A stretch of 64,000 nucleotides of DNA from NCBI RefSeq assembly GCF_001500065.1, contig NZ_LQIN01000001.1:496001-560000 (forward strand). Direction: 5' to 3'. Shown piece after piece: positions 43,217 to 50,713 of the stretch. How positions within the stretch are numbered: the first letter of the stretch is position 1; each line of letters starts with the position of its first letter. Under the pieces are notes generated by a model, which did no database searches, was not told the origin of the DNA, and saw nothing but the letters and a program-made list of their open reading frames with translations. The position numbers and the translations under genes are program-made. The DNA is from Mycobacterium sp. IS-3022 (GTDB taxonomy: Bacteria > Actinomycetota > Actinomycetes > Mycobacteriales > Mycobacteriaceae).

Positions 43217-43621
43217 TCAGGCAGTTGGCGGAATCCCGAGTTCGTGCAGCAGTATTCGGACGCGCTGCTCGATCTCGTCTCGAAGCGGGCGGACGTCGTG
43301 GACGGATTGGCCGGCCGGGTCAGGCAATTCCCAGTTCTCGTAACGTTTGCCGGGAAGCAGCGGGCAGGTGTCACCGCAGCCCATGGTGACAACGACGTTC
43401 GCCTCTCGAAGCATGTCGTCGGTCCACTGCTTGGGCTGCGCGGATGCGATGTCGATGCCCTTCTCGGCCATCGCAGCGACTGCCGAGGGATTCACCTGAT
43501 CGGCCGGCTCGGACCCGCCGGAGAATACCGAAACACGCTCGCCGCCAAGGAATTCAGCGAAACCCATTGCCATTTGCGAGCGGCCAGCGTTGTGAGTGCA
43601 CAAGAACAGCACGGAGGTCAT
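43217..43621 (-). CDS. arsC: Arsenate reductase ArsC (LMW phosphatase type)
   Basis: This 134-residue enzyme reduces arsenate to arsenite. The phosphatase loop FLCTHNAGRSQ is at residues 6-16 with the nucleophilic Cys8, and the resolving Cys pair lies in VTMGCGDTCP near residue 80, as in thioredoxin- or mycothiol-coupled ArsC. It begins at ATG 43621, overlapping the acr3 stop (ATGA). It is last in the cadI-acr3-arsC operon, divergent from arsR. Confidence 0.94.
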   Translation of the reverse strand: MTSVLFLCTHNAGRSQMAMGFAEFLGGERVSVFSGGSEPADQVNPSAVAAMAEKGIDIASAQPKQWTDDMLREANVVVTMGCGDTCPLLPGKRYENWELPDPAGQSVHDVRPLRDEIEQRVRILLHELGIPPTA

Positions 43622-44700
43622 CGGCTCACCACCGGTGCGATCCCTGCGAACCGTCGGCGTAGAAACAAGGAGACATATACGAGCCCGACGAGTACCGGCA
43701 CCTCGATCAGCGGCCCGACCACGCCGGCGAGAGCCTGTCCGGAAGTCGCGCCGTACGTGGCAATGGCCACCGCGATGGCGAGTTCGAAGTTGTTGCCCGC
43801 GGCGGTGAACGCCAGCGTCGTGGTGCGCTCATATCCCATGTCGAGCAGCAAGCCGAGACCGTAGCCGCCTGCCCACATGATCGCGAAATAGGCGAGCAGC
43901 GGCAGGGCGATACGAGCGACATCCAGGGGGCGGCTGATGATCTGGTCTCCCTGCAACGCGAACAGGACGACGATCGTGAACAGCAGACCGTAGAGCGCCC
44001 AAGGGCCGATCCGGGGCAGGAATTTCGACTCATACCAGTCGCGTCCTTTGGCCCGTTCACCCATCCGACGCGACAGATAACCCGCCAAGAGCGGGATGCC
44101 CAAGAAGATCAGCACAGACTTCGCGATCTGCCAGGGCGACGTGTCGATTGTCGTCTGCTCGAGACCCAGCCAGCCGGGTAGCACGGAAAGGTAGAACCAA
44201 CCGAGAACCGCGAACATCAGGACTTGGAAGACGGAGTTGAGCGCCACCAGGACGGCGGCGGCCTCCCGGTCCCCACATGCGAGGTCGTTCCAGATGATCA
44301 CCATCGCGATACAGCGCGCCAGGCCGACGATGATCAGGCCGGTGCGGTACTCGGGCAGATCCGGCAACAACAGCCAAGCCAGCGCGAACATCAGCGCGGG
44401 ACCGAGGAGCCAGTTGAGCACCAGAGAGCTGATGAGCAGCTTGCGGTCGGCCGTTACGGTGTCGAGCCTGTCGTAGCGGACCTTCGCCAGCACCGGGTAC
44501 ATCATGATGAGCAGTCCGAGCGCGATCGGCACCGAGATACCGTCTACCTGAACATGATTGAGCACCCCGTTCACACCGGGTGTGAGCCGGCCGATGAGTA
44601 AACCCGCGACCATCGCAATGCCGATCCAGACCGGCAGCAGACGGTCCAGCGGCGAGAGCCTCTCCACGACGTGCGTCTCGCGGACGACGGGACCGCTCAC
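43618..44700 (-). CDS. acr3: Arsenite efflux permease ACR3
   Basis: ACR3 expels arsenite through the membrane. The 360-residue protein has ten hydrophobic segments; the conserved LGLARCIAMVIIWNDLACGD carries the essential Cys, and TAAGNNFELAIAVAIA near residue 295 is the second signature. The GTG at 44700 is chosen because it overlaps the stop of an upstream 46-codon frame (GTGA). It is coupled to arsC downstream. Confidence 0.94.
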   Translation of the reverse strand: MSGPVVRETHVVERLSPLDRLLPVWIGIAMVAGLLIGRLTPGVNGVLNHVQVDGISVPIALGLLIMMYPVLAKVRYDRLDTVTADRKLLISSLVLNWLLGPALMFALAWLLLPDLPEYRTGLIIVGLARCIAMVIIWNDLACGDREAAAVLVALNSVFQVLMFAVLGWFYLSVLPGWLGLEQTTIDTSPWQIAKSVLIFLGIPLLAGYLSRRMGERAKGRDWYESKFLPRIGPWALYGLLFTIVVLFALQGDQIISRPLDVARIALPLLAYFAIMWAGGYGLGLLLDMGYERTTTLAFTAAGNNFELAIAVAIATYGATSGQALAGVVGPLIEVPVLVGLVYVSLFLRRRFAGIAPVVSR

Positions 44701-44837
44701 GCTGGCGTTCCGACGGTTTCGTTGCTGTCGGCGGCCACGACGGACAACAGTTTCCGGTCCATGGATGAATAGTCGCAGTCGGACAGTGTGCAATCGCACT
44801 GGGTGCCCGGCGGGCCCGCGCCAGTCGTCAGCAGCAC
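44697..44837 (-). CDS. 46-codon overlapping ORF of uncertain status
   Basis: A GTG inside the end of cadI (44837) opens 46 codons ending at a TGA that overlaps the acr3 GTG. The frame contains CDCTLSDCDYSS, three Cys in seven residues. Overlaps at both ends suggest translational coupling from cadI to acr3; whether the peptide itself matters is unknown. Without it, the cadI-acr3 gap is 127 bases. Confidence 0.3.
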   Translation of the reverse strand: MLLTTGAGPPGTQCDCTLSDCDYSSMDRKLLSVVAADSNETVGTPA

Positions 44838-45298
44838 GCGGACTCCGGCGCCGTCGCGTCGTCCGACGCCGCGGCGCCGCAGCACCCGGCCTGGCCGTGG
44901 CCGTCGGCGCGCTGTGGGCTGGTGCCGAACGTGTCGGAGTCGGCGAGCACGGTGTAGACCTCCCACTTCTCGCCGGCCGGACCGGTGACCCACACCTTGT
45001 CCTGCTTGGCGAAGCAACAGGTGGTGCCGATCTCCTCGTCGGTGAAGAGGCCCTCGTCGGTCAGTCGAGCGATCTCGGCATGCACCGTGTCGCTGGACTC
45101 GACCTCGACGCCGAGGTGGTTGATGGTGCCGCCCTTGCCGGGGTTCTGCAGCAGGACGAGTTTCAGGGGCGGTTCCGCGACGGCGAAGTTGGCGTAGCCC
45201 TCTTTGACCTTGGCGGGTGGGGTGTTGAACAACTTCGAGTAGAAAGTGATGGCCTCGTCGAGGTCGTCGACGTTCAGTGCGAGTTGGACGCGGGACAT
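44828..45298 (-). CDS. CadI/ArsI-family VOC protein
   Basis: This 156-residue protein is of the CadI/ArsI group: vicinal oxygen chelate dioxygenases, some of which cleave C-As bonds (ArsI), others induced by cadmium (CadI). It has the paired Cys TTCCFAKQDK near residue 90 that binds the metalloid, and a Cys-rich tail (QAGCCGAA, ESACC). Start MSRVQLALNVDDLDEAI at ATG 45298. Given acr3, arsC and arsR next to it, an organoarsenical role is plausible. Confidence 0.85.
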   Translation of the reverse strand: MSRVQLALNVDDLDEAITFYSKLFNTPPAKVKEGYANFAVAEPPLKLVLLQNPGKGGTINHLGVEVESSDTVHAEIARLTDEGLFTDEEIGTTCCFAKQDKVWVTGPAGEKWEVYTVLADSDTFGTSPQRADGHGQAGCCGAAASDDATAPESACC

Positions 45299-45319
45299 GA
45301 TGCTTCCTCCGTACCTGTG

Positions 45320-45376
45320 TGACATATATCGAAATAGCGGCTGCAGCCAGGATGCGCACCTTTTCGATATATGTCA
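45320..45376. promoter_or_regulatory. Perfect 15-bp inverted repeat, ArsR operators
   Basis: TGACATATATCGAAA (45320-45334) and TTTCGATATATGTCA (45362-45376) are exact reverse complements separated by 27 bases, in the gap between divergent cadI and arsR. Each arm probably forms or overlaps one operator facing its own gene. Confidence 0.8.
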
Positions 45377-45399
45377 ACACCCTGTGGCAACATGGTTGC

Positions 45400-45759
45400 A
45401 TGCCCAAGGCGCTACCAGTGATCGACATGTCCGCCCCGGTGTGCTGCGCGCCCGTGGCGGCGGGCCCGATCAGCGACGACGACGCGCTGCACGTCGCGCT
45501 GCGGCTCAAGGCCCTCGCCGACCCGGCCCGGGTCAAGATCATGTCGTATCTGTTCAGCTCGGCTACCGGCGAAGAGACCAGCAGCGAGCTTGCCACTGTT
45601 CTGGGCTTGACCGAGTCGACGGTCAGTCACCACATCAGCCAGCTTCGGCGGGCTGGGCTCGTCGAGTCCGAGCGTCGGGGCATGAACGTCTACCACCGCG
45701 CGCACCGCGACGCCCTCGTCGCGCTGTGCGCTGTGCTGGATCCGACCTGTTGTCGGTAG
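45400..45759 (+). CDS. arsR: ArsR/SmtB family metalloregulator
   Basis: This 119-residue repressor has the winged helix-turn-helix SSELATVLGLTESTVSHHISQLRRAGLV near residues 67-94. Cys pairs lie at the N-terminus (APVCCAPV) and the C-terminus (DPTCCR), likely binding As(III) or another metal across the dimer. It is divergent from cadI-acr3-arsC, and strong inverted repeats in the gap are its probable operators. The ATG at 45400 is chosen; upstream codons overlap the operator. Confidence 0.92.
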   Translation: MPKALPVIDMSAPVCCAPVAAGPISDDDALHVALRLKALADPARVKIMSYLFSSATGEETSSELATVLGLTESTVSHHISQLRRAGLVESERRGMNVYHRAHRDALVALCAVLDPTCCR

Positions 45760-45958: not shown

Positions 45959-46247
45959 TGGGCCCTGTGGGACTCGAACCCACAACCTACGGATTAACCT
46001 GCCACTTCGGCTTTCGCCGCCGCTACGAATAGCGTTCGTGGTCTGGACCGTCCCTTCACCATGACTGACGTCGTAGGTGCCACCCGTCCGGTCTCTACAC
46101 CTTCCGAGGAAACCCTCGGCTTGGCTCGGGATTGCCATCTGACCGGAGTCAGGAAGGGTTCCCCGACTTTGAGTGGTGTCATCCACGGGGTTTCCCCCGT
46201 GGCGCTCCTATTGAAGTCCGCAGCTCTGCCAATTGAGCTAAAGGCCC
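45959..46247 (-). tRNA. lysT: tRNA-Lys(TTT) gene interrupted by a group I intron
   Basis: The 5' exon is 46247-46214 (34 nt, GGGCCTTTAGCTCAATTGGC...) and the 3' exon is 45997-45959 (39 nt, ending CACAGGGCCCA). Joined, they make a normal 73-nt tRNA: acceptor GGGCCTT with AGGGCCC, T-arm GTGGG/CCCAC, anticodon stem GCGGA/TCCGT and loop CTTTTAA with anticodon TTT. The intron sits between anticodon positions 34 and 35, the usual site of cyanobacterial tRNA-Leu introns. CCA is not encoded in full. A -10 box TAGACT (46264-46259) precedes the gene. Confidence 0.9.
45998..46213 (-). ncRNA. Group I (IC3-like) self-splicing intron
   Basis: The 216-nt insert has group I architecture. P2 is an 8-bp stem with GAAA loop (46202-46183); P3 pairs CCACTC (46176-46171) with GGGTGG (46085-46080); P5 CTGAC/GTCAG (46152-46139); the core GCAATCCCGAGCCAAGCC follows; P6 CCGAGG/CCTCGG (46119-46104); P7 pairs GACCG (46093-46089) with CGGTC (46050-46046); then a UUCG-capped stem (46034-46021) and a GAAA-capped stem (46019-46008). 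The 5' exon ends in T and the intron in G. No ORF inside. Confidence 0.88.
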
Positions 46248-46258
46248 TTGCGGGGAGG

Positions 46259-46264
46259 AGTCTA
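46259..46264 (-). promoter_or_regulatory. -10 box (TAGACT) of tRNA-Lys
   Basis: Read on the minus strand, TAGACT lies 11 bases before the tRNA 5' end, a proper distance for a promoter with a short trimmed leader. Confidence 0.55.
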
Positions 46265-46324
46265 ACGCAGTGTGCTCCGGTGGTTTCTCACTCTCCCTCG
46301 TTCGCGGTCCGAACCGGGCGGCGG

Positions 46325-46345
46325 CCTACCAACTGAGCTATGAAG
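46325..46345 (-). pseudogene. tRNA 5'-half relic
   Basis: The minus strand reads GCTTCATAGCTCAGTTGGTAG, a typical tRNA acceptor plus D-arm start. No anticodon stem, T-arm or matching 3' acceptor (ATGAAGC) follows. It sits between tRNA-Lys and the TnpB element, so it may be a tRNA gene cut by insertion or deletion. Confidence 0.5.
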
Positions 46346-46358
46346 CGTGTCAGTCGAC

Positions 46359-47771
46359 TCAGTGAGTCGCCGTCACCGCCCTTCTCGGGCGTCCAACGTT
46401 CACACACGGGGTGCGTGAACGTTGGTTCCCGCTTCTTCCGGGCTGGCGTCGCCTGCACGCCGAGCGTGCTGGATGGCGCCGGCCCGTCGGCGGGCATTGG
46501 TAGCCCGGCCTCCTGCTTGGGAGTCCGGGGATCGATCGACGTCGTAGCGGGCCTGGGCCCAGCGCGCCAGGGTTCACTGCGGCGTTGTGGTCGCGGTCGG
46601 CAGAAAATCCACAATCGCAAGTGAACCGTCGGTCCGCCAGAGTCATATGGGTGCTGATCGAACCACACGCCGCACAGGTCTTAGTCGACGGGAAGAACCG
46701 GTCGGCACGCGCCAGCTGCCCGCCCCTCCAGGCTTGCTTATAGCACAGTATCCGGGCAAACTCGGCCCATCCGGCGTCTGAGATCGCTTGAGCGAGGCGG
46801 TGATTGGCGAGCATGCCGGTTACGTTCAGATCTTCTACGACGAGCCGGTCGTGGGTCTTGACCAGCGCGTTGGAGACCTGGTGTAGAAAGTGCCGCCGGA
46901 TGTTCGCGATGCGGTGGAGGTGACGTTGTACTGCTAAAACAGCCTTTTGGTGGTGGCGCGATCCTTTCCTCTTGCGTGACAAATTACGGGTCAACTGTCG
47001 GTGTCGCGTCATTGCGGAGCGGAGAGGTTTGGGTGCGGCGTCGAAGCGTGCGACTTCTGTGCCGTCCACATCAGCGGCGACTGCGAATGCGGTGAGCCCA
47101 CGATCGACACCGACCCAACTACCGTGATCTCCGTCGGTGCGGGTCGGATGGCAGTGCAGCGGATGCAGGTCGGCCGCCTCGACGGTCAAGGAAGCCCACC
47201 AGCGTCCACCACGATGGCTGATCGTGACAGCGAGAATCCTGGCGCGGTCCTTGGCTAGCATTCGCCGCAATGGACGGGTGTCATTGTGAACGGCGATCGC
47301 GCCAATTCGGGGCAAAGTGATCGAGCGGGGCCGGTTGTCGTCCCCGACGCGGATCGCTGGTCGTCGGCCATCGCGATTCGTGTTGCGCAGTCGGAACGGC
47401 CGCGGCCCACTTGCCTTCTTCTTGAACCTCGAAAATCCAACGCGTTTACCGTTGCACCGTCCAGAGCGTGAATCCGCCCACGCTTTGAGGGCACGGCCAC
47501 AGTCGACGGCAGCTTCCTCGAAAACCTGCTGACAGACGTCGCCTCGCCACGCGAGGCCAGTCGCCGCAAGTTCAATCACTCCATCGCGGCCTACGGCCCA
47601 TAGCCGGCCGGCGGCCTCGGTCTTTTTCCACGCATTGAACGCGTTGATCAGGTCGAACCCGGTCCATGGCACCACCACCGTTGGGTCTGCGCGACGGGCG
47701 GTCAACGCGGTTTTGACCATTCGCAGGCATTCGTTGTACGCGAATCGGACCGCGCCTGAGTGCCGAGCCAA
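46359..47771 (-). CDS. tnpB: TnpB RNA-guided nuclease-like protein (IS605/IS607 type), 5' end defective
   Basis: TnpB proteins are RuvC-type nucleases guided by an RNA from the element's right end. Visible are RuvC Asp in WVGVDRGLTAFAV, Glu in LVVEDLNVTGM, the zinc ribbon CAACGS...CDCG, and the last Asp in SADRDHNAAVNP, so all catalytic residues remain. The frame upstream continues the normal N-terminus (RFRFCLNPTAEQRIAL) to about 47810 but contains no ATG, GTG or TTG. An ATG at 47830 is in another frame, so a small frameshift is likely. TTG 47771 is the first formal start. Confidence 0.8.
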   Translation of the reverse strand: MARHSGAVRFAYNECLRMVKTALTARRADPTVVVPWTGFDLINAFNAWKKTEAAGRLWAVGRDGVIELAATGLAWRGDVCQQVFEEAAVDCGRALKAWADSRSGRCNGKRVGFSRFKKKASGPRPFRLRNTNRDGRRPAIRVGDDNRPRSITLPRIGAIAVHNDTRPLRRMLAKDRARILAVTISHRGGRWWASLTVEAADLHPLHCHPTRTDGDHGSWVGVDRGLTAFAVAADVDGTEVARFDAAPKPLRSAMTRHRQLTRNLSRKRKGSRHHQKAVLAVQRHLHRIANIRRHFLHQVSNALVKTHDRLVVEDLNVTGMLANHRLAQAISDAGWAEFARILCYKQAWRGGQLARADRFFPSTKTCAACGSISTHMTLADRRFTCDCGFSADRDHNAAVNPGALGPGPLRRRSIPGLPSRRPGYQCPPTGRRHPARSACRRRQPGRSGNQRSRTPCVNVGRPRRAVTATH

Positions 47772-47972: not shown

Positions 47973-48045
47973 GCCCCCTTCGTCTAGCGGCCTAGGACGC
48001 CGCCCTTTCAAGGCGGTAGCGCGGGTTCGAATCCCGTAGGGGGTA
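47973..48045 (+). tRNA. gluT: tRNA-Glu(TTC)
   Basis: A 73-nt cloverleaf: acceptor GCCCCCT with AGGGGGT, anticodon stem CCGCC/GGCGG with loop CTTTCAA (anticodon TTC), T-arm GCGGG TTCGAAT CCCGT. CCA is not encoded. First of three tRNA genes in a row. Confidence 0.95.
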
Positions 48046-48079
48046 CACGTGGCGGCCCGTACGATGGGACGCACAGCAA

Positions 48080-48153
48080 GGCCCTGTGGCGCAGTTGGTT
48101 AGCGCGCCGCCCTGTCACGGCGGAGGTCGCGGGTTCAAGTCCCGTCAGGGTCG
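48080..48153 (+). tRNA. aspT: tRNA-Asp(GTC)
   Basis: A 74-nt cloverleaf: acceptor GGCCCTG with CAGGGTC (one G-T pair) and discriminator G, anticodon stem CCGCC/GGCGG with loop CTGTCAC (anticodon GTC), T-arm GCGGG TTCAAGT CCCGT. It lies 34 bases after tRNA-Glu. Confidence 0.95.
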
Positions 48154-48198
48154 CCATTACGGCGAGGCATCTGGGGTTGTGCACGACCGGTGCCTTCC

Positions 48199-48272
48199 GG
48201 CCAGGTAGCTCAGTTGGTACGAGCGTCCGCCTGAAAAGCGGAAGGTCGCCGGTTCGATCCCGGCCCTGGCCA
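48199..48272 (+). tRNA. pheU: tRNA-Phe(GAA)
   Basis: A 74-nt cloverleaf: acceptor GGCCAGG with CCTGGCC, anticodon stem CCGCC.../GCGG with loop CTGAAAA (anticodon GAA), T-arm GCCGG TTCGATC CCGGC. CCA is encoded (48273-48275), unlike its two neighbours. A T7SS locus follows directly, so this 3' end is a possible integration site. Confidence 0.94.
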
Positions 48273-48380
48273 CCACGATCGGCCTGCGCACCCACGCGCT
48301 TCCTCCAAAACTCGTGTCGATGGCGGTGCAAATCGTCCGGTAGCGTCATCACCAGCTTTGTGGGCTGTTCGGGGATTGGC

Positions 48381-48656: not shown

Positions 48657-50713
48657 GCGCTGCTCCTACCGGGGCCGTCGTGCTGCCCAGCCGGTCGGAT
48701 ATCGAGAACTGGCCGACCGAGCACCTTGACAACGCGGCGGTCCGGCTGCGGACGTCGGGCAACCAGTCCGTCACGTTGTTCGAGCAACACCGACAGAACA
48801 TCGTCGCTCCCGGCAAAACAACCTGGGAGGGTGACGCGATGGACGCCGCGCTGAATCGGGTGACCACCGACACCGCGGTGGTGCGCCGGCAGACGGCCGT
48901 TCAGGATGAGGCCGCCAACATCGCGGAGAACGGCAGCCATGACCTGCGAGGGGCCAAGCGGGCGGTACTGGACGCTATCGCCGAGGCCGAGGCTGATGGG
49001 TTCCACGTCGGTGAGGGCTTGTCGCTCACCGACACGCGCGACGTTTCCCCGGATGCCATGGCCGCTCGACAGACCGCCGCGAGTGAGCACACCGAATACA
49101 TCCGCTGGAATGCCGAGCAGCTGGTTTAAGTCGACAGCCTCATCGGCCAGCGGTTGCAGGACAAAGCCGTTGAGCTGGAAGGCATCCGGTTCGATGGCGA
49201 GGGCGAGCGACATGACAGCGAGGGCACGGTTCAACTCGTTGACAACACGGTCAAACTGAATCCTTCAGACCAGCCGGCCGAGGAGGGCAAAGATGAGCCG
49301 GACGGCCAGCCCGATGCGGCGCCTGAGCAAGCACCTGGACAGATCGGACCGTTCCCGGTGCCCAAGTCCGTCGACGATGCGGCGAAGAAACCAGAGGCTG
49401 AGTCCGACGGGAAGCCCTCTGCCACGAGCGACGTCGGGGGCACACTCGAAGACCTGTTGAATCCAGGAGAAGCCGCGCCCGGTGAATCCGGCGACGGTCC
49501 GCCCAGTGGCCTTCCGCCGGCGCTCAGCCAGCAGCCGCCGCGGAGCCCACTGGATCAGATCCTCAACCAACACGCCGGAAACGGCAAAGGGGACGGCCAG
49601 GATGGGCGCTACACCAAGTCCCCGTTGACCGCGCCGATCGTGGAGGCCGACCCGTCGGTGGTCGATCGACAAGCCGCCCGAGTCGATGCTGCCCGCGAGG
49701 CCCTCGACGCTGCGCAAGCCGAGTTGGACGCCGACGCCGGACAGACCTACTCGCAGGGCGCGGGGGCGGGTCCCGGCCGCGACGTCACCGACCCGTTGAG
49801 CCAAGCGGTGTTCGACGCCCGCCGAGAACTGACTGAGCAGACTGCGATACTCCAAGATCTCACCCAGGCCCGGAGCGAACTCGGTGGCCAGGCCGTGCCG
49901 ATCCCGCCGCTGCCGGAAAACGCTGACGTGCAAGCGTTCGCGCCGGAACCACCGGTCTTCGAGCGAGCGACCGGGGCGTTTGCCGAGGGCATGAAGGACA
50001 CCTCGAAGACCATCTGGGATCTGACGATGCCCGACGTGGGCAACATGTATGACGTCGCCACCAACTGGGACGAGGCCTCTGGCGCCGAGCGAGCCCAAGC
50101 CATCGCCGACGCGGCCGGCATGGCTCCCATCCCCGGCGGCAAAATCCTCGGCGAAGGCATCGAACACGGACTCGACGCCCTCGGCGGGGCATCCCGTCAC
50201 GTCGATGACGTCCCCACGCCCCACGTCGACGTCGATCCGCCGCCTACGCCGCACAGCCACGGCGACGCACCCTCTGGCAGTCATGGGCCGCTCGACACGT
50301 CTCCTGCACCGCATACTCATGTCGAGACGCCCACGTTCGACCTGACTACCGACCACGCCCTGGCCTTGGGAGCCGACCCAGCCAGAGGTGGGTCGTTTGT
50401 TGCAAGCGAAGCCGAGACCGGCCTCAGAATTGAACATGAATTGGGCGTGAACCTTTCGCGAGCTGAAGCGGGTGCCTCCCACGACTGGGTTGACGCCAGC
50501 GGAAGGACATACGACGCGGTGGGAAACTTCCCCTCAAAGTTCTTTGACGCTCAGTGGTCGAACTTGCAAGATCAAATAATCCGCCACGCAGACCTCAAAG
50601 CCGAGATAGTTCCCGTAGATGTTTCTAGGTTCACCGCCGCGCAGCAAGAAACGGTAAGAGAGTTTGTGCGAAGCCTGAATAATCCCAACATCATCGTTAT
50701 AGGAGGACAGTGA
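48653..50713 (+). pseudogene. T7SS polymorphic toxin gene with in-frame TAA
   Basis: One reading frame runs from GTG 48653 to TGA 50713 but is broken by TAA at 49127-49129. The first part (158 codons) has a WxG turn (TTWEGDAMDAA) and ends RWNAEQLV; the second resumes with SLIGQRLQDKAVELEGI and continues through a Pro/Asp/Gly linker to a C-terminal domain of about 120 residues (RIEHELGVNLSRAEAGASHD, DWVDASGRTYDAVGNFPSKF, PVDVSRFTAAQQETVREFV). No start with a ribosome site follows the TAA (TTG 49154 is formal). Total would be 686 codons. Toxin activity is inferred from layout. Confidence 0.65.

Follow-up and report, generated by a model that had tools for sequence, protein, structure and literature searches.

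A group I intron divides the one tRNA-Lys(UUU) gene detected in a mycobacterial assembly, a likely element-borne replacement of lysT

Results

A tRNA-Lys(UUU) gene divided after U34

A stretch of 64,000 nucleotides (nt) from Mycobacterium sp. IS-3022 (contig NZ_LQIN01000001.1; this whole stretch is called the window below) carries at 45959-46247, on the minus strand, a tRNA-Lys(UUU) gene into which a group I intron of 216 nt is inserted after U34. On that strand the 5' exon (46214-46247) ends in GGACUU, its last base being U34, the intron (45998-46213) runs from the C after U34 to a terminal G, and the 3' exon (45959-45997) starts UUAAUCCG and continues to the discriminator A. As the original prediction had it, both halves are intact and once joined read as a normal tRNA-Lys(ttt), and the placing of the intron in the anticodon is upheld by this exon reading and by an alignment of 46 intron-split tRNA-Lys genes, picked from 68 loci after the removal of near-copies. 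An internal guide, GAG (46205-46207, minus strand), forms a 3-bp P1 with exon bases C32, U33 and U34 that finishes in a U-G pair at the 5' splice site; U34-G, U33-A and C32-G are each invariant in 46 of 46 sequences. A three-base guide of such a kind is known in Azoarcus tRNA-Ile, where GUG pairs with CAU, and the introns of tRNA-Leu(UAA) occupy the same place, after U34. A -10-like TTAGACT, read by eye as the likely tRNA promoter, lies at 46259-46265 (minus strand), with the counterpart GTAGACT in a second mycobacterium that has the split gene, G322.

ARAGORN without its intron mode overlooks the split gene; with it, the splice is moved by 1 nt and the call becomes tRNA-Asn(GTT). A splice one base earlier, yielding tRNA-Asn(GUU), would also suit the window copy in that the base ahead of the terminal G is likewise G there. 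We prefer the lysine reading because the last intron base before TTAATC is an invariant G in the 46 sequences, whereas the base ahead of it varies, and because an uninterrupted tRNA-Lys gene in genome G097 has halves that match those of the split gene at 34/34 and 39/39 bases. The invariance of the three P1 pairs also argues against tRNA-Asn(GUU), as does the normal tRNA-Asn(GTT) that the genome already has, and we regard an asparagine product as extremely unlikely.

The intron has a covarying group I core

That the insert is a group I intron, as originally predicted, is supported by a hold-out covariance model and by a core that covaries among the 46 relatives. The model was built from 20 relatives and their own RNAalifold structure, with the window, G322 and the Gordonia phage Daredevil excluded, and gave 239.5 bits for the window intron (E 3.6e-69, the E-values of this model being rough by the tool's own note), 228.9 bits for G322 and 169.4 bits for Daredevil. 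When pairing was counted on a hand-written structure from P1 to P9 with the P7 pseudoknot, 96.5% of 2737 cells were paired over the whole structure and 39 of the 63 pairs showed changes on both sides. Any of the five measures taken was reached by 0 of 500 shuffles, which ignore the relatedness among the 46 sequences, and pairing dropped to 28.8-46.0% in slid versions of the structure, over which the actual one, drawn from the window, is favoured, above all on cells paired. The P2 hairpin (46183-46202, minus strand) has both-side changes in 8/8 pairs. The P7 strands (46093-46090 with 46049-46046; 46046-46093, minus strand) flank the 3' strand of P3 and P8, and one P7 pair is UA in 42 and CG in four of the sequences; with P3 and P7 both 100% paired, and with the U-G pair at the 5' splice site and the terminal G invariant, the conserved P3-P8 core and the splice sites are those of a group I intron. 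The GAAA loops noted at first sight are present on P2 and on the last hairpin. From its resemblance to other tRNA introns the intron is a putative member of subgroup IC3.

The Rfam group I model bore out the assignment in one respect and not in another: in a search of 451 bases RF00028 spanned the intron across the full model (1-253; 35.6 bits, E 1.5e-7), but the score lies below the gathering cut-off of 50. That cut-off is a curator's threshold and no property of the fold. Relatives scored 48.9, 41.2 and 32.7 bits, all below it, the Daredevil intron gave a part match of 15.4 bits, and the intron of Tsukamurella sp. 8F (L115) was left unreported by the RF00028 search. Since the Rfam model missed the window intron over 4 kb at E<=1 and reported the intron in none of five whole genomes at E<=10, a covariance model of our own and a short stretch were needed. 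The intron is predicted to be self-splicing.

No other tRNA-Lys(UUU) gene was found

RF00005 has 44 matches in the genome to which the window belongs (G000; 99.99% complete, 51 contigs), and ARAGORN on these tRNA loci gave 42 isotype-anticodon pairs, with Lys-CTT present and Lys-TTT absent; the contiguous 12-base junction GACTTTTAATCC, expected of an uninterrupted gene, is absent from G000. The early suspicion that this is the sole tRNA-Lys(TTT) gene thus holds in the assembly. AAA codons occur in six of the seven window frames counted. Because no other tRNA-Lys(UUU) was found and AAA should not be decoded by tRNA-Lys(CUU), the cell would, if the assembly is complete, depend on splicing. A split gene that is dead, with AAA read by another tRNA missing from the draft, would be compatible with an assembly in 51 contigs, yet its completeness is against this, and the same lack recurs in G322, which has 45 RF00005 matches, a main contig of 5.8 Mb and the same 42 isotype-anticodon pairs without Lys-TTT. 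As the exons are also intact, with a promoter-like box in both genomes, and the intron core covaries, we hold a dead gene to be very unlikely.

The split gene lies beside a scrap of native lysT and has a counterpart in a recombinase element

The native lysT locus is recognisable by its conserved neighbours, gluT-aspT-pheU (47973-48275, plus strand). Of 30 such loci that were read, our own among them, 26 have native lysT just upstream of gluT-aspT-pheU and divergent from it. The four exceptions are the window and genomes G011, G040 and G039, in which a TnpB-type sequence is followed by a scrap of lysT and this in turn by a different tRNA-Lys. In the window the TnpB-type gene (OrfB_IS605, Cas12f1-like_TNB; 46359-47771, minus strand) lies between gluT and the scrap, a 16-nt piece of the native lysT 5' half (ATAGCTCAGTTGGTAG; 46326-46341, minus strand) that stands 78 bp upstream of the split gene, and the split gene itself, beyond the TnpB gene, has the same orientation as native lysT. 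In G011, G040 and G039, which have similar TnpB sequence here, the tRNA-Lys is intronless, of another type and identical in all three, and over 100 bases the replacement tRNA region of G011 shares 85% identity with phage Fionnbharth.

G322 has 25 bases of native lysT, then an element of 4,445 bp, then the remaining native lysT. The ends of the element, GTTATCTG/CAGATAAC, make an 8-bp inverted end repeat, its insertion point is 9 bases before the intron site, and its cargo is the split tRNA-Lys, a DUF6262 gene and two PF00589 tyrosine recombinases; three of its four scanned frames have Pfam matches, none of them phage structural. The host gene is thus broken and not rebuilt in both genomes, with the scrap in the window and both native pieces in G322. 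The G322 element carries the isoacceptor of the tRNA that it breaks; for the window, in which no element end was found, the same would follow only by comparison with G322.

The window gene looks foreign by its sequence. Its exons are identical to the native gene of G002 at 55/73 positions, as against 71/73 for Tsukamurella and 70/73 for Phytoactinopolyspora, and window and G322 share 90.4% identity over 345 columns that include 52 bp upstream of the tRNA. In a tree of 40 intron rows, whose bootstrap is not fully settled and whose phage rows the tool flags for long branches, the window intron groups with that of G322 (support 100/99) and then with Phytoactinopolyspora, of another family (97/87).

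The split gene occurs across Actinomycetota and in phages

Searching related species, as had been proposed, found the intron in many Actinomycetota, in phages and in G322. The pattern searched ran from P7 to the 3' exon with exact bases, so that its counts are lower bounds: it matched at least 35 viral and 62 genome contigs, and at least 20 and 43 of these, respectively, held a whole tRNA-Lys(ttt) after joining. By record titles the 43 genome loci comprise 22 Microbacterium, six Nesterenkonia, four Frankiales or Frankiaceae, two Tsukamurella, two Prauserella, one Phytoactinopolyspora, three other Actinomycetota and three alphaproteobacterial metagenome-assembled genomes (MAGs), two of them Sphingomonadales. 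The split gene is present in two of 396 genomes of the window's genus (G000 and G322) and in five of 397 of the order sample, our own included. Twelve genomes were searched with the hold-out model, and eight had one intron copy each; five of these had supplied training sequences, and G000, G322 and G756 had not. The model found no intron in G002, G011, G039 or G040. With a second pattern, a contiguous tRNA-Lys(UUU) was found in Nesterenkonia alba (G766) and in none of the other 12 of 13 named genomes, nor in G610. In two Frankiaceae/Frankiales MAGs (L123, L124) the split gene is divergent from gluT, like the native gene.

Nesterenkonia alkaliphila F10 has two different intron-split tRNA-Lys(UUU) genes, L121 and L131, on two contigs. 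In LR756511, a large uncultured phage (L076:2401-3104), the hold-out model has two matches about 310 bases apart; near the second lies an HNH-like frame (by eye), and the 3' exon there reads as tRNA-Leu(UAA). On the plasmids pCTX-M3 (L074:6001-6231) and pLAO43 (L077:5001-5241), the two records in which the gene was read, a related group I intron, likewise placed after U34 and scoring 197.4 bits under the hold-out model, splits an unannotated tRNA-Leu(UAA), on pCTX-M3 near aac(3)-IId. In 1,251 of 72,556 plasmid records a match spans at least 80% of the query, nearly all matching records being at 60-80% identity.

Neighbouring sequences

The 16-nt lysT scrap past TnpB is whole in G011, lacks one base in G040 and agrees at 14/16 positions in G039, and the TnpB regions of these three genomes are only 67-74% identical to that of the window despite the kept scrap. 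The scrap presumably lies where a TnpB guide would lie, and it mismatches both replacement tRNAs; from this it could be a TnpB guide against native lysT. Two other sites in G000 that match the scrap with one mismatch speak against the guide idea. We rejected a reading as an IStron, in which a group I intron is combined with a transposase gene of the IS605 type: a TnpB gene near a group I intron is the likeness, but in the window TnpB is not part of the intron, standing 111 bp past the 5' end of the tRNA, and relatives have TnpB alone, without the intron.

The split lysT and gluT are about 130 bp apart in Tsukamurella sp. 8F but about 4.4 kb apart in Tsukamurella ocularis (L142:2187-7156), where tblastn at 1e-6 found no relative of the G322 recombinases in the interval. 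An arsenic-type gene set (ArsC-like, SBF/ACR3-type, CadI-like and ArsR-like; 43217-45759) adjoins the split tRNA of the window, and a frame of 519 amino acids with a C-terminal CdiA_C_tRNase domain (E 6.9e-7) lies at 49154-50713, about 0.9 kb past the tRNA genes.

Discussion

Origin of the split gene

We think it likely that the split gene, the sole tRNA-Lys(UUU) gene detected in the assembly and interrupted by an intron that is predicted to be self-splicing, is a rescue tRNA borne by an element and that it replaced lysT. An element that breaks lysT would bring the rescue tRNA as the replacement, and the window copy would derive from a G322-like element since stripped of its recombinases and of the native 3' half, with growth now dependent on the ribozyme. 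In the transcript an exogenous G would attack after U34, held in the 3-bp P1 (CUU/GAG), and the freed U34 would then attack after the terminal G, which would ligate CUU and UUAA.

A number of results weigh against this account. The RF00028 score falls short of the Rfam cut-off, the G322 element is known from that one genome, and a search for its larger recombinase (E<=1e-100, run without a positive control) found no close relative in the window's genome and none among the 118 genomes of the genus that it covered. The native lysT 3' half was found neither in the window (<=3 mismatches) nor in the genome. As neither a recombinase relative nor this half was found in G000, the element origin of the window copy rests on G322. 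Among the phages, 19 of 20 contigs lack a contiguous lysT core in the stretch examined and so offer no link to integration, and the clear plaques of Daredevil (PMC10865867) speak against efficient rescue or splicing in that phage. The history at the window locus may, moreover, have had two steps, because the near relatives G011, G040 and G039 carry an intronless tRNA-Lys of another, phage-like type.

The intron might instead be a neutral passenger, an old resident of actinomycetotal lysT, the split gene having moved by ordinary gene transfer with no lysT-breaking element involved. The split gene does resemble a resident lysT in many chromosomes, given the 12 named genomes and G610 in which no contiguous tRNA-Lys(UUU) was found and the native-like arrangement in L123 and L124, and no recombinase was found at the window locus. 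The split tRNA of G322, however, sits within a recombinase element inserted in native lysT, and a scrap of native lysT remains in the window; we therefore judge a passenger history somewhat unlikely and favour replacement of lysT by an element-borne gene.

Relation to tRNA-dependent lysogeny

Guerrero-Bustamante and Hatfull (PMC10865867) showed phages that disrupt lysT and themselves supply an isoacceptor. In Fionnbharth and its kin, as would be the case here, integration breaks lysT and the element-borne isoacceptor is the only remaining gene, but the rescue tRNA in our case is intron-split. The G322 element is also no temperate phage with a tyrosine integrase, being a 4.4-kb element with two recombinases that entered 9 bases before the intron site and not at CTT. 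By analogy it would work like tRNA-dependent lysogeny, and we do not file it as a member. In having two tyrosine recombinases and a small DUF6262 gene in a row it is like the Tn554-like elements, with their tnpA, tnpB and tnpC as generally described, and it differs from them in its target and its tRNA cargo.

According to the text of PMC10865867, Daredevil integrates at tRNA-Lys-TTT without rebuilding it and only its relative Mollymur encodes a tRNA of its own; a figure legend there differs, stating that Daredevil lacks tRNA-Ile2-CAT. Between its integrase and an intron-split tRNA-Lys(UUU) gene, the Daredevil genome carries the anticodon-arm sequence of lysT as a further copy (TACGGACTTTTAATCCGCAG). 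Daredevil does have a tRNA-Lys(UUU), but a split one, and its clear plaques argue against splicing there.

Could the intron protect the attachment site?

Anticodon loops are common targets of introns and integrases alike. The native lysT strand has no CTT other than that of the anticodon loop, and the intron begins right after it. Of the core, CTT alone recurs at every secondary site of the Fionnbharth integrase, integration events for which the authors urge caution because they are rare (PMC10865867). We tentatively suggest, as a rather doubtful idea, that the intron serves the rescue tRNA as armour against integration, splitting the attachment (att) site in DNA whilst splicing restores the tRNA in RNA. 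The coincidence of CTT and intron may be due to chance, anticodon loops being so commonly targeted by both. The 19 phage contigs without a contiguous core count against armour, as do the entry of the G322 element 9 bases before the intron site and the presence, in seven of the 20 phage contigs, of at least seven other tRNA genes in the stretch examined. If the idea is true, elements and hosts would keep an essential tRNA unusable as a target by incoming elements or by their own integrase.

Significance

Introns in mycobacteriophage capsid and tail genes are reportedly the subject of one paper. In the open-licence literature we found no report of tRNA-Lys introns in mycobacteria, Actinobacteria or Microbacterium, and one may be in print elsewhere. 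With the bacterial group I introns of tRNA-Leu(UAA), tRNA-Ile(CAU), tRNA-Arg(CCU) and tRNA-fMet the present intron shares a small size, a place in the anticodon loop, a P1-P9 fold with P7, GAAA loops and a terminal G; it differs in its host gene, tRNA-Lys(UUU), and in its hosts, Actinomycetota and phages. The relevant passages of one 2014 review list only cyanobacteria, alpha- and betaproteobacteria as hosts (PMC4033280), and those of another from the same year place all phage introns to date in protein-coding genes (PMC3984707). The present cases would extend the published range of such bacterial introns by one host gene, one phylum and the tRNA genes of phages.

Judged from these sequences, a mycobacterium and many other Actinomycetota seem to rely on a ribozyme for an essential tRNA, and such genomes appear to lack tRNA-Lys(UUU) because standard models score the intron below their cut-off. 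The finding bears on the published view of Daredevil as a phage without a rescue tRNA, and it would join two separate fields, self-splicing introns and integration at tRNA genes, and offer a test of att-site protection by an intron.
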